Below, one piece after another: positions 8,857 to 58,010 of a DNA stretch of 64,000 nt (its first letter is position 1; each line of letters starts with the position of its first letter). The translations under genes and the position numbers were made by a program. The stretch is taken from contig NZ_ML219770.1 in NCBI RefSeq assembly GCF_004765785.1, positions 62,001 to 126,000 on the forward strand, written 5' to 3'. This DNA comes from Halorussus ruber (lineage in GTDB: Archaea; Halobacteriota; Halobacteria; Halobacteriales; Haladaptataceae). The notes beneath the pieces are model-generated. The model saw only the letters and a program-made list of their open reading frames with translations, had not been told where the DNA came from and did not search any database.

Positions 8857-9022
8857 TGAAAGGGCGAGCGGGGGCGCGGTCACGCGAGCGGAGCGAGGGT
8901 GACCTCGGAAGACGCGGGTTGTCTTCCGGCGTTTACGTGGTCGGCTCAGCGGCCCCTATCCGACGCAACTACGTCCGTCGGATATGTCGCTGAGCGTCCG
9001 CGAGGCCCGCGAGGGCTTTCGA
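8857..9022 (+). repeat. Structured repeat family, B-type copy with P1-P4
   Basis: This copy fills the middle of a 587-base gap between divergent genes. The P1 arms are 8857-8881 (TGAAAGGGCGAGCG core) and 8993-9022 (ending GAGGGCTTTCGA). P2 is GGTCAC (8879-8884) with GTGACC (8899-8904). P3 is GGAAGAC/GTCTTCC with loop GCGGGTT (8907-8927). P4 spans 8945-8994 and has the TATCC/GGATA pairing with an unpaired CCC facing a single T. The rest of the gap holds an AT-rich stretch (8668-8740) and nothing else I recognise. Confidence 0.82.
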
Positions 9023-14334: not shown

Positions 14335-14635
14335 AAGCACTCGACTGAACAAACCACCAGCGAACGCTCGACTGAACAAACCACGGGGCGGGACGAAGGG
14401 GCCGCCCGGTCGCGGTCACGCGAGCGGAGTCTCACCGAACGAAGTGAGGTCGTTCGAAAGGCGAAGCCTTTCGTGATCACGAAAATCTCCGATTTTCGGA
14501 CGATGACGGCTCGGGAGACGCGGTTTGTCTTCCGGTGCGAAGGTGACCTCGGGAGACGCGGGTTGTCTCCCGGCGTTTACTGTAGTCGTCTGAGCGACCG
14601 CGACCGGGCGGGGGCTTCAAGAAATGTTCATCACC
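14335..14635 (+). repeat. Structured repeat family, large A-type copy
   Basis: This copy occupies the 685-base gap between divergent carB and the JAMM gene. About two 27-base tandem units (ACCACCAGCGAACG core) run from 14335 to 14390. The P1 arms are 14394-14417 and 14595-14619. P2 (GGTCAC 14414-14419 with GTGACC 14543-14548) is expanded by inserted hairpins, including CGAAAATCTCCGATTTTCG and a P3-like hairpin at 14514-14534. P3 proper is GGGAGAC/GTCTCCC (14551-14571). P4 is missing. About 170 bases are nearly identical to the 47.2 kb copy. The rest of the gap is AT/GC mixed with no gene. Confidence 0.85.
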
Positions 14636-31061: not shown

Positions 31062-31300
31062 AGTTGAACTGTGTGAACTACCCCACCCTACTCGCTCACC
31101 GCTGATGCGGTTCGCTCGGTGAGGGTAGGGCTTCCTGTTTCCACGACGCGCTTTGCAGATACGGGTGTATCCGCAGGGAGCGCAGTCTCCACAGGCATTG
31201 GTTCGGAGTGTCCCACTCCTACATCTTCGAGACCGCGAGAAAGGATGTTCCACGCCGCATTCGCGTCTCTGTCCGCCTCGAACCCACACGATGGACACGA
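31062..31300 (-). ncRNA. Candidate TnpB guide RNA scaffold overlapping the tnpB 3' end
   Basis: Known TnpB proteins use a right-end RNA that overlaps the 3' part of their own gene and whose last bases guide target choice. A strong hairpin covers the last tnpB codons (31086-31130). The transcript would run leftwards out of the element, with the guide starting near 31060. This is inferred from family behaviour; no boundary can be proven here. Confidence 0.35.
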
Positions 31301-32317
31301 ATGCTCACGCATCCACAACGGCTTGTCCGTCTCTGTTCCGCACGACGCGCATTCTTTGCTCGTACCTCGGGAGTCTACGGCGACGAAGTGTGTTCCTTCG
31401 CGCTCGCACTTGTATTCGAGCATCCGCAGGAACGTTCCCCACGAGGCTCCGGCCCGGTTACGAGAGTTGCCCGGCAGTTCGACCAGTCCCTTCGCGTCCA
31501 AGTCCTCGACCGCTACGAGGTCGTACTCGCGGGCGTAGTATGCCGAGAGTTTGTGCAAGAAGTCTCGACGCTTCCGCTTCAGGTCGGCGTGGCGTTGAGC
31601 GACCGTCTTGCGTTGTTTCTCCCAGTTGTTCGAGCCGTGTTCTTTCCGCGAAAGGTTGCGTTGGGCACGTTCTAACCGTTCGCGCTCGTCGGAGAAGTCC
31701 GGTGACTGGATAGCAGTTCCATCGGTATCGTGTGCGTACTTCAAGATTCCTACATCAACCCCGACGATTCGATCTGGATTCTCCGACTTCTCGGGCGTGT
31801 CTTCGTTCACGTCGATACCGAACGTGGCGAACCATTCGCCCGTAGGTTCTTGCTTGACCGTGACCTGTTTGATAGTCGCGTTCTCGGAGATGTCTCGGTG
31901 GAAGTGAATTGGAATCTCACCGATTTTGCTCACCCATAACACGGGCCGACCACTCGTATTCTTGAGTTCGAAGCCGGACTGGTTGTAGGTGAGCGACCGA
32001 TACTCCCGAGGCGATTTCCACTTGAGCATTCCCCCAGCACGCCCATTCTCCTTCTGTGCTTTGAGCGAGGAGAGGTTGTCGTAGACGCGCTTGACGACCA
32101 TCTGCAACACTTTCGAGTGAACGTCTCCGAGGTCGTCCCACCACGATTTCAGGTCGGGAAGCGTCCCCTGTACCTTGTAGCGTGCTGGAATCTCGTCTGC
32201 CTCGTTGAGTTTGTAGAGGACGTGGTTATAGAGTTGCCGACAAGTATCGACGTGGTGCAGAAGCGTCTCGGTGAGGGCTTCCGGTGGGTCGAGCCGATAC
32301 TTATAGTTGTAGTGCAT
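31088..32317 (-). CDS. tnpB: TnpB-type RNA-guided nuclease (OrfB family)
   Basis: This 409-residue protein appears intact. RuvC motifs are present: Asp188 (VGVDVG), Glu271 (VAVEDLD) and the Asp in ADRDANAAWNI (349/351). A zinc ribbon lies between the last two motifs (Cys323, Cys326, Cys341, Cys344). The N-terminal WED/REC-like part starts MHYNYKYRLDP. Such proteins cut DNA with a guide from the element end and help it persist. The ATG directly follows the stop of the small upstream ORF, so the two are coupled. Confidence 0.93.
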   Translation of the reverse strand: MHYNYKYRLDPPEALTETLLHHVDTCRQLYNHVLYKLNEADEIPARYKVQGTLPDLKSWWDDLGDVHSKVLQMVVKRVYDNLSSLKAQKENGRAGGMLKWKSPREYRSLTYNQSGFELKNTSGRPVLWVSKIGEIPIHFHRDISENATIKQVTVKQEPTGEWFATFGIDVNEDTPEKSENPDRIVGVDVGILKYAHDTDGTAIQSPDFSDERERLERAQRNLSRKEHGSNNWEKQRKTVAQRHADLKRKRRDFLHKLSAYYAREYDLVAVEDLDAKGLVELPGNSRNRAGASWGTFLRMLEYKCEREGTHFVAVDSRGTSKECASCGTETDKPLWMREHSCPSCGFEADRDANAAWNILSRGLEDVGVGHSEPMPVETALPADTPVSAKRVVETGSPTLTERTASAVSE

Positions 32318-33672: not shown

Positions 33673-33729
33673 CGAGATGGAGACAACTCCCGGTTTCGCT
33701 CAGCGAAGCAATCCTCTCCCTTGGCGGAC

Positions 33730-33909
33730 TGAAAGGGCGAGCGCGGTTCGCGGTCACGCGAGCGAAGCGAGGGTGACCTCGGAGGACGCGGTTTGTCCTC
33801 CGGCGCCCGAAGGGCATGGTCGTCTCAGCGACCCCTATCGCGGACCGGGCTGTGCGGAGAGGTCCGCGATATGTCGGTGAGAGACCGCGAACCGCGCGAG
33901 GGCTTTCGA
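33730..33909 (+). repeat. Structured repeat family, best-preserved B-type copy (P1-P4)
   Basis: The P1 arms are 33730-33755 (GAGCGCGGTTCGCGGTC) and 33883-33909 (GACCGCGAACCGCGCGAG). They match over about 15 contiguous pairs, with an outer GAAAG/CTTTC clamp after a purine-rich internal loop. P2 is GGTCAC/GTGACC (33752-33777). P3 is GGAGGAC/GTCCTCC with loop GCGGTTT (33781-33801). P4 is 33824-33881 with GGACC/GGTCC at its top and the CCC/T internal loop. It lies between convergent cupin and psiE genes. Confidence 0.88.
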
Positions 33910-34002
33910 AACCTCTGTTCCAGTTTCAATCGACTCTCTGGTTCCCGAACTCCGTCACTCTGAATCAATCCCCAACTCCAAATCGGCCACCCGAATCCCG
34001 AA

Positions 34003-43972: not shown

Positions 43973-44154
43973 TTGAAGCCCCCGCCCCGTCGCTTTGCAT
44001 TGGTAGCGATTCGAGGGGGAATCACGACCGTGAACGCCTCTGAAGCCCCCGCCCGGTCGCGGTCGCTGGCCGACATATCTTCGGCTCTCAACACCGCCCG
44101 CCTCAGATAGGGGTCGGCCAGCGACCGAGCAAGCGCGGCCGGGCGGCCCCTTCA
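43973..44154 (-). repeat. Structured repeat family, inverted copy plus a truncated second copy
   Basis: On the minus strand the copy has P1 arms at 44123-44154 (GGGGCCGCCCGGCCGCGC) and 44041-44064, and P4 between them (44065-44126) with GCCGAC CCCTAT and ATATGTCGGC. P2 and P3 are absent. A second 3' arm (CGGGGCGGGGGCTTCAAG) lies at 43973-43993. The 548-base gap between divergent tfs and the K+ channel holds nothing else except an AT-rich stretch near 44278. Confidence 0.78.
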
Positions 44155-47139: not shown

Positions 47140-47490
47140 GCCGAACAACCCACCAGCGAACGCTCGGCCAATTAATCCACCGTGGGTGGGATGAAGGGGC
47201 CGCCCGGTCGCGGTCACGCGAGCGGAGTCTCACCGAACGAAGTGAGGTCGTTCGAAAGGCGAAGCCTTTCGTGATCACGAAAATCTCCGATTTTCGGACG
47301 ATGACGGCTCGGAAGACGCGGTTTGTCTTCCGGTGCGAGGGTGACCGCGGGAGACGCGGTTTGTCTCCCGGCGTGCAGTTTAGTCGTCTGAGCGACCCCT
47401 ATCCGCGCCGATACGGTTCGTTGCGGTCAGGCGCGAATATGTCGCTCAGCGACCGCGACCGGGCAGGGGCTTCAAGAGGACAACATTACA
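47140..47490 (+). repeat. Structured repeat family, complete A-type copy (P1-P4)
   Basis: Tandem units (ACCCACCAGCGAACG core) precede the P1 arms at 47192-47215 and 47451-47474. P2 (47212-47217 with 47341-47346) carries inserted hairpins, among them GGAAGAC/GTCTTCC (47311-47331) and CGAAAATC/GATTTTCG. P3 is GGGAGAC/GTCTCCC, loop GCGGTTT (47349-47369). P4 is 47388-47449 with GAGCGACCCCTATCCGCGCC and GGCGCGAATATGTCGCTC. The tail CAAGAGGACAACATTAC follows. It fills most of the 499-base gap between two minus-strand genes. Confidence 0.9.
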
Positions 47491-57739: not shown

Positions 57740-58010
57740 CGGGCGACCGAACCACCGGCGAACGCTCGGTGAATCAACCACCGGAAAACGCCCCGTGAAA
57801 CAACCGACAGGGTGGGATGAAGGGGCCGCCCGGTCGCGTTTACCTTGGTCGTCTCCGGCGGCTCTATTCGCAGGCCGGACGGTGTCTCGCCGAACGGAGT
57901 GAGGCGAGGCTCGGAAGACGCGGTTTGCCTTCCGGCGCGGAAAGGCCTGCGAATATCCGCCGGAACGACCGCGACCGGGCGGGGGCTTCAAGAGACGTTC
58001 ACGGTCACGA
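57740..58010 (+). repeat. Structured repeat family, rearranged A-type copy between tgtA and arcS
   Basis: Three tandem 26-base units (57748-57815) precede the P1 arms at 57818-57838 and 57967-57990. P4 is the long helix with CTCCGGCGGCTCTATTCGC at 57853 and GCGAATATCCGCCGG at 57949. Here P3 (GGAAGAC/GCCTTCC, loop GCGGTTT, 57913-57933) sits inside the P4 helix rather than before it. The tail CAAGAGACGTTCACG follows. The whole 486-base gap is between two co-directional genes of one pathway. Confidence 0.85.

Follow-up and report, generated by a model that had tools for sequence, protein, structure and literature searches.

The window analyzed here, a 64,000-nt stretch of the Halorussus ruber genome (GCF_004765785.1; NZ_ML219770.1, positions 62,001-126,000), carries copies of a non-coding element whose structure is conserved through paired changes and which, on haloarchaeal plasmids, is linked to an SSB gene with a fixed geometry. 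In the H. ruber genome (4.32 Mb in 31 contigs) this plasmid-linked element forms a repeat family of at least 146 matches at E ≤ 0.001 to R1, a covariance model built from 15 B-type copies; the count is a lower bound because only 150 candidates were scored. An earlier description of the window made from its letters alone (the sequence-only reading) had already noticed a dispersed folded element, and the family is larger than it had claimed. We tentatively propose that it may act in cis on plasmids in the form of a folded DNA single strand, with a location and geometry comparable to those of the Frpo promoters of the F plasmid, and that it has multiplied in Halorussus chromosomes.

The following features were located in the window.
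33730-33909, plus strand: B-type copy with an inserted two-hairpin module (R1 match 33720-33919, 136.2 bits, E 1e-30)
33720-33729, plus strand: unpaired 5′ leader, consensus CCTGGCGGAC, here CTTGGCGGAC; kept in copies of other families
33741-33755, plus strand: 5′ arm of P1, GCGCGGTTCGCGGTC, from pairing and fold
33753-33804, plus strand: inserted module of hairpins H1 GTCACGCGAGCGAAGCGAGGGTGAC and H2 GGAGGACGCGGTTTGTCCTCC, the P2 and P3 of the sequence-only reading; missing from undecorated copies
33805-33815, plus strand: P2, GCCC-GAA-GGGC with a GNA triloop, from the fold
33818-33886, plus strand: P4, a long stem with a conserved internal loop (C-N-C / T beside TAT/ATA)
33883-33897, plus strand: 3′ arm of P1, GACCGCGAACCGCGC, from pairing and fold
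8857-9022, plus strand: B-type copy between divergent DUF1405 and DUF5802 genes
14394-14620, plus strand: A-type copy 5′ of carB, with P1 intact and P4 lost (end motifs only, no model match)
44040-44154, minus strand: undecorated A-type copy
47192-47475, plus strand: A-type copy with large insertions
57818-57991, plus strand: A-type copy with a module at the tip of P4
818-864, plus strand: 47-nt A-type remnant (end motifs only, no model match)

The outer arms of the copy at 33730-33909, described earlier as pairing over about 15 contiguous base pairs, do pair over 15 bases. When 184 nt around this copy are folded as RNA, z is -6.15, and when the copy is folded as DNA, z is -5.19; none of 200 shuffles was as stable in either case. 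The second copy named in the sequence-only reading, at 8857-9022, is indeed a copy, but it folds less stably (z = -2.56, a stability matched by 4 of 200 shuffles) and has an imperfect P1, and the stretch at 47192-47474, taken to be a changed version, proved to be an A-type copy. The four-helix shape holds for the copy at 33730-33909 but not as the general form, since two of its helices belong to the inserted module. A TnpB-type gene (IS605 OrfB) is located at 31088-32317, about 1.4 kb from this copy, and no match to the element was found at the ends of that gene.

End types and anatomy were read from 48 oriented copies, taken from 38 stretches and the window. The minimal element is about 125 nt, undecorated copies ranging from 108 to 133 nt, and its core is made up of the end stem P0, the stem P1, a small hairpin P2 that may be absent, and a long P4 whose internal loop is conserved. 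From 5′ to 3′, an unpaired leader (CCTGGCGGAC in B copies) is followed by P0 (GAAAG/CTTTC), a purine internal loop (GG/GG, with GA/GA in B copies) and P1, and then by P2 or a short linker and by P4. Two end types can be found, A (TGAAGGGG...GGGGGCTTCA, 19 of the 48 copies) and B (TGAAAGGGCGAGCG...CGAGGGCTTTCGA, 29 copies). That the arms differ between A and B copies while remaining complementary inside each copy had been noticed earlier, and it is seen in most of the 48 copies as well as in the pair counts given below.

Extra hairpins occur at three sites: before P4, at the tip of P4, and between P4 and the 3′ arm of P1. One frequent insert, represented in the window at 33753-33804, is about 52 nt long and made up of hairpins H1 and H2; relatives of this module sit at other positions in other copies. 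The H1 arms vary around GAGCGAAGCGA, and H2 is GGAAGACGCGGTTTGTCTTCC; in 22 H2 hairpins from H. ruber stretches, 140 pairs are Watson-Crick, 5 are G-U and 9 are others. The module is found in loops and junctions of the element and also elsewhere, including upstream of copies in L017, L031 and L046, and it looks like a small mobile repeat in its own right. We also noticed arrays of an approximately 26-nt unit (CGCTCGGTGAATCAACCGACAG) that precede many A copies (e.g., window 14336-14394) and that occur without a core in L164 and L165. Partial repeats of the 3′ end of the element lie downstream of many copies, and the motif GAAGCTAGCTTCAGGCTTGAGC or a near variant recurs about 60-90 nt 3′ of B copies (L010, L017, L037, L038, L042 and L044). 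A possible resemblance of GGGATTGAAAG to CRISPR repeats was considered.

It is evident from the covariance model that the base pairs are backed by covariation, both in the copies of H. ruber and in those of its relatives. In alignments fitted to the model, which favors the model's own structure, 36 of the 46 base pairs show changes on both sides among 53 H. ruber matches (including five weak matches on the opposite strand), and 93.4% of the cells pair; among 68 distinct matches of relatives, 40 of the 46 pairs change on both sides, and 94.1% of the cells pair. The covariation score is 0.354 in H. ruber, where shuffles give 0.105 ± 0.006 and sliding gives no more than 0.051, and it is 0.351 in the relatives, where shuffles give 0.103 ± 0.005. 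P0 covaries too, with GAACG/CGTTC in L282, L307 and L308, GAAGG/CCTTC in L272 and GTGAG/CTCAC in L270. The window copy at 47192 and a copy in another species that lies between the same two flanking genes (G008, L190:5479-5620) differ by compensated changes in P1 and P4. Pairing is kept although the copies are diverged, with a mean pairwise identity of 65%. Selection on structure, as suggested in the sequence-only reading, is therefore supported by paired changes in paralogs, in relatives and at one locus shared by two species, together with the conserved internal loops. Such covariation is equally expected for a structured RNA and for a folded DNA strand, and strong covariation among dispersed repeats need not imply RNA.

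Thirteen Haloarcula plasmid records match the element (pNG500 twice), with a single matching place in 11 of the records and two places in the other two. Most of the Haloarcula (g21) matches lie at one conserved place with long shared flanks, and an SSB-like gene is present at 15 of 18 g21 loci. Usually there is one element, located 4-6 kb past VirD4 and in divergent orientation to an SSB/OB-fold gene. Along the plasmid come a VirB4-like conjugal transfer protein (if covered by the stretch), a relaxase, a VirD4-type coupling protein, 4-6 kb of other sequence and the element; the element is on the plus strand, and the SSB/OB-fold gene is on the minus strand immediately before it. With the relaxase either annotated or found by a PF03432 search, the order relaxase, VirD4, 4-6 kb, SSB gene, element is seen in pNG500, pHH126, JP-L23 unnamed2, H. 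pelagica and H. halophila unnamed2. JP-L23 unnamed3 shows VirD4, SSB gene and element, its relaxase lying beyond the stretch, and H. halophila unnamed3 shows the same three together with a relaxase-like stretch found by tblastn only, no relaxase being annotated. GH36 (L315) carries a partial copy in a different context. A link of the Haloarcula copies to rRNA operons was rejected, no Rfam match being found in 10 loci.

Eight Haloarcula loci were aligned, two of the ten being left out because the exact core string was not found in them; identity in the core windows is 91, 86 and 78%. For four diverged plasmids the corresponding values are 91, 86 and 76%, against 42% and 38% in the nearest flank windows and 49-81% in the SSB coding windows; the core is the most conserved window but not the sole one, because other upstream intergenic windows are 63-87% identical. 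Just upstream of the plasmid element, L294:7476-7641 matches non-coding parts of pNB101 and pHLAJ5II, two small plasmids, and overlaps a second block that is conserved across Haloarcula plasmids; it is possibly part of a replication origin.

The linkage can also be approached from the SSB side. Homologs of the OB-fold protein encoded on a Haladaptatus plasmid occur in 190 plasmid records, and 12 plasmid loci over several genera were picked by SSB gene first (10 by this protein and 2 by its Haloarcula homolog) and scanned, with filters off, with a second model, R2, in which none of the 12 had been used; one of the 12 records (Halorientalis marina) had previously given an element-like match elsewhere, about 14 kb off. 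The element was found at 8 of the 12 loci (E ≤ 4e-6), in every case upstream of the SSB gene and on the strand opposite to it. The eight loci are those of Halorientalis marina, Haloarcula marina, Halorussus vallis, Haladaptatus caseinilyticus, Haladaptatus pallidirubidus, Haloplanus GX21, Halorhabdus tiamatea and Halobacterium salinarum PHS2. The element is within about 1.1 kb of the SSB gene in seven of these, and 2.5 kb away with one gene between in PHS2. R2 gave no match at the remaining four SSB loci (Haladaptatus halobius, Haloferax lucentense, Halomontanus and Natronomonas). Six of the eight positives (the two Haladaptatus, Haloplanus, Halorhabdus, Halorussus vallis and Halobacterium) share the common outer base and have a different distal sequence, which contains the motif AAGCACCG (GTAAGCACCG or CAAGCACCGCAGG). 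The same geometry with the first type of domain is found in Haladaptatus salinisoli (G022, L212) and Haladaptatus DYSN1 unnamed2, whose SSB proteins are about 30% identical to the Haloarcula ones. Linkage to an SSB gene with fixed geometry recurs across genera, and some of it could go back to an ancestral insertion that was passed on by descent.

The surroundings vary among plasmids. No relaxase, VirD4 or other transfer gene is annotated in about 55 kb around the element copy of DYSN1 unnamed2. A second copy on the DYSN1 plasmid (L307:14776-14898) lies directly before a DUF87 gene, and a relative of DUF87 follows the copy in L270. No such SSB gene was found within 24 kb of the plasmid copies in Salinibaculum, Halovenus, DYSN1 unnamed1 and Halorussus halophilus, and neither the window nor the short flanks around copies in the numbered Halorussus genomes gave an SSB-like gene of the plasmid family. 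PLSDB types these plasmids as non-mobilizable, with MPF_T for some, including pNG500, pHH126 and four of the eight positives.

The proposed role as folded single-stranded DNA would work as follows. The home of the element would be the transfer or establishment region of haloarchaeal plasmids, where it stands divergent from the SSB/OB-fold gene. When the plasmid becomes single-stranded, in conjugal transfer or in replication via single strands, the element strand would fold into P0, P1 and the distal domain, and the folded shape would be recognized as a start site for RNA or primer synthesis. Synthesis would run toward the 5′ side of the element strand and through the SSB gene, as proposed for Frpo; Frpo1 and Frpo2 of the F plasmid, single-stranded promoters of the leading region (PMC9849209), are the precedent. 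If the element strand is the transferred one, its 5′ side faces the relaxase and VirD4 genes, and synthesis from the element would read the SSB gene. A majority of genes on the minus strand is expected in that case, and among genes starting within 10 kb past VirD4 in seven plasmids, 55 of 72 are on the minus strand, a count in which operon neighbors are not independent and in which only 3 of the 8 genes of pHH126 are oriented as expected. In Halorussus, the element would have multiplied to at least 100 intergenic copies with further small hairpin modules. We infer DNA rather than RNA, the role in initiation, the direction from plasmid to chromosome and the mode of copy spread. The window copies would be of the multiplied kind and may need no function in place. 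A wider claim, about which we are more doubtful, is that the element is an archaeal counterpart of single-strand promoters, recognized by its shape, with at least two interchangeable distal domains on P0-P1, that it is placed so as to switch on the SSB gene during the single-stranded state of the plasmid, and that derivatives of it have invaded Halorussus chromosomes, with well over a hundred in one genome.

The distribution of the copies is that of a dispersed element and not of a gene essential at each site. R1 matches were found in 40 of 59 genomes and, under strict filters, in 110 of 243 genomes of the order, representing 47 of 77 genera (H. ruber included in both). Among Halorussus relatives there are at least 53 matches (53 of 53 scored) in G001, G002, G011, G012 and G013, at least 52 of 53 scored in G003 and G006, 11 in G004, 6 in G005 and only 1 each in G009 and G014; G006 and G010 carry copies on contigs of 3.0 and 3.7 Mb. 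The interval between the DUF1405 and DUF5802 genes, which holds the copy at 8857-9022, is 561 nt in H. ruber, and in the 14 relatives with both genes it gave no model match and measures 151-986 nt (151-194 nt in six). Upstream of carB, an R1 match in the same orientation was found in 4 of 17 Halorussus relatives (the G012 locus being incomplete), two of the four copies being intact (one with a large insertion at the tip), one degenerate and one without P4 like the window copy; a search for orthologous copies at carB in 80 haloarchaea gave a single weak match (E 0.028). Of the orthologous sites examined, the majority are empty, and the relatives are too diverged for insertion junctions or target duplications to be placed.

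All 49 H. ruber copies examined are intergenic, a count that, like those of orientation, is based on a home-made gene caller. Cis-regulation of neighboring genes was rejected, as the neighbors of the 43 copies with both called are arranged -+ in 13, ++ in 13, +- in 9 and -- in 8 cases, with no clear orientation. The gene on the 3′ side is on the strand of the element in 30 of 48 copies, as a raw count. REPIN-like pairing was likewise rejected (3 pairs closer than 500 nt in H. ruber versus 2.5 expected). Head-to-head pairs of elements about 200-250 nt apart were seen in L298, L299 and L300 (two genomes of the same genus and another family). A Y1 (IS200/IS605) transposase was discarded as the mobilizer, PF01797 being absent from the element-rich G001, G002, G003, G010, G011 and G016; H. 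ruber itself has seven matches to PF01797. The phage records searched gave no match to the element.

These observations could be explained by a non-autonomous mobile repeat (MITE, SMR or REP-like) whose ends fold for the moving enzyme and whose plasmid copies are inherited without a role. The spread from 1 match to the H. ruber total, the empty orthologous sites and decayed carB copies, and intergenic copies without a clear orientation bias all agree with it, as does the Haloquadratum SMR-A, which is about 110 bp long and has inverted terminal repeats and no target duplications (PMC3119063). Pairing has been kept at such low mean identity, however, SSB linkage and geometry recur with SSB proteins that share about 30% identity, conservation on plasmids is highest in the core window (though upstream DNA is conserved too), and six element-rich genomes lack the Y1 transposase of which H. 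ruber has matches. We regard a mobile repeat as somewhat unlikely.

A structured non-coding RNA, acting in cis or in trans, is what the sequence-only reading had proposed. Its expectation of selection on a folded structure stands, and so does its remark that no named RNA has this shape: Rfam 15 gave no match at the gathering score in the whole window, and two copies searched up to E 10 had no match either. Both covariation and conserved internal loops are marks of structured RNA. G-U pairs make up 1.9% of the pair cells in H. ruber and 3.1% in the relatives, far below the 11.7% of SRP RNA from 29 genomes, a set that is less diverged than that of the element and whose structure is a prediction counting G-U. 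A tRNA control gave a similarly low value (acceptor and T stems of 11 haloarchaeal tRNAs, 3 G-U in 132 cells, 2.3%), which weakens the scarcity of G-U as proof of DNA: it sets the element apart from SRP RNA and not from tRNA. P2 was surveyed in 117 rows, of which 25 were over-long and 55 lacked a hairpin of at least 3 bp; triloops were present in 31 and tetraloops in 6. The triloops are 25 GNA, 2 TNC and 4 others, and none of the six tetraloops is GNRA or UNCG; across whole matches, triloop hairpins with stems of at least 4 bp are 40 GNA, 5 TNC and 112 others. GNA triloops form stable DNA mini-hairpins (Yoshizawa 1997 and Hirao 1994, as cited in PMC6479982), and the strand preference of the triloops would also suit a transcript. 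Given also that the 49 copies have no clear orientation to genes and that copies decay and range in number so widely, an RNA seems to us rather improbable. The suggested action as single-stranded DNA draws mainly on the plasmid setting.

That setting might also suit an origin of transfer or a rolling-circle nicking structure for a relaxase, with the OB-fold protein as a relaxosome partner. Relaxase, VirD4 and OB-fold genes lie within about 9 kb, OB-fold relaxosome proteins are known in ICESt3 (PMC12614216), and the second conserved block, about 200 nt upstream, overlaps the match to pNB101 (replication protein gene) and pHLAJ5II. The element adjoins the SSB gene, however, about 6-9 kb from the relaxase gene, and more than 100 chromosomal origins of transfer are hard to imagine, which makes this explanation improbable. 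Still far less credible is a mutational artifact, in which the arms would stay complementary through template switching at palindromes and not by selection. The arms do pair almost perfectly by Watson-Crick rules, and base composition is strand-symmetric, but mismatched loops (GG/GG, C-N-C/T) and the unpaired leader are retained from family to family as the stems change.

Little is understood of conjugation-like transfer in haloarchaea, although relaxase and VirD4 genes are annotated. Among the titles found for transfer, none reported cis-acting DNA or expression from incoming single strands, and among those found in an open-licence library none described the element, the text matches to the motif being unrelated by title. 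The element is a concrete, deletable candidate on pHH126 (Haloarcula hispanica) and pNG500 (Haloarcula marismortui), both from cultured species. Among known repeats, the pneumococcal BOX repeats are modular and intergenic, with about 100 copies and stable stem-loops; the element resembles them in modularity, intergenic position and stable stem-loops, but BOX is bacterial. REP/BIME repeats are dispersed imperfect intergenic palindromes linked with RAYT (Y1) transposases; the element is similarly dispersed between genes, but it has a branched fold of about 125 nt, and six genomes rich in it are without Y1.

The element is non-coding, with inverted terminal repeats and many dispersed copies, as are SMRs, and it resembles SMR/PATE repeats in a length near that of SMR-A, in copy number and in nested repeat modules. 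As described in the available part of PMC3119063, SMR-A of Haloquadratum walsbyi is mobilized in a mode that is unknown and targets IS605-type palindromes, and SMR copies are commonly more than 95% identical, whereas copies of the element average 65% and its structure covaries; linkage to a plasmid SSB gene belongs to the element, none being described for SMRs in that part of the source. Unlike Frpo, the element is archaeal, of about 125 nt, with a different fold, free stem sequences and chromosomal amplification, and no -10/-35 or TATA-like boxes were noticed on reading its consensus by eye. Like Frpo1 and Frpo2, it is non-coding, is predicted to fold stably as a single strand and stands upstream of an ssb-type gene; it occurs as two copies on one plasmid in Haladaptatus DYSN1 unnamed2, and in Haloarcula its place past relaxase and VirD4 would fit that of Frpo in the region beyond oriT, with a fitting strand geometry if the element strand is transferred. 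By this analogy, the element may be comparable to Frpo in function and geometry, and it is not classed as Frpo.
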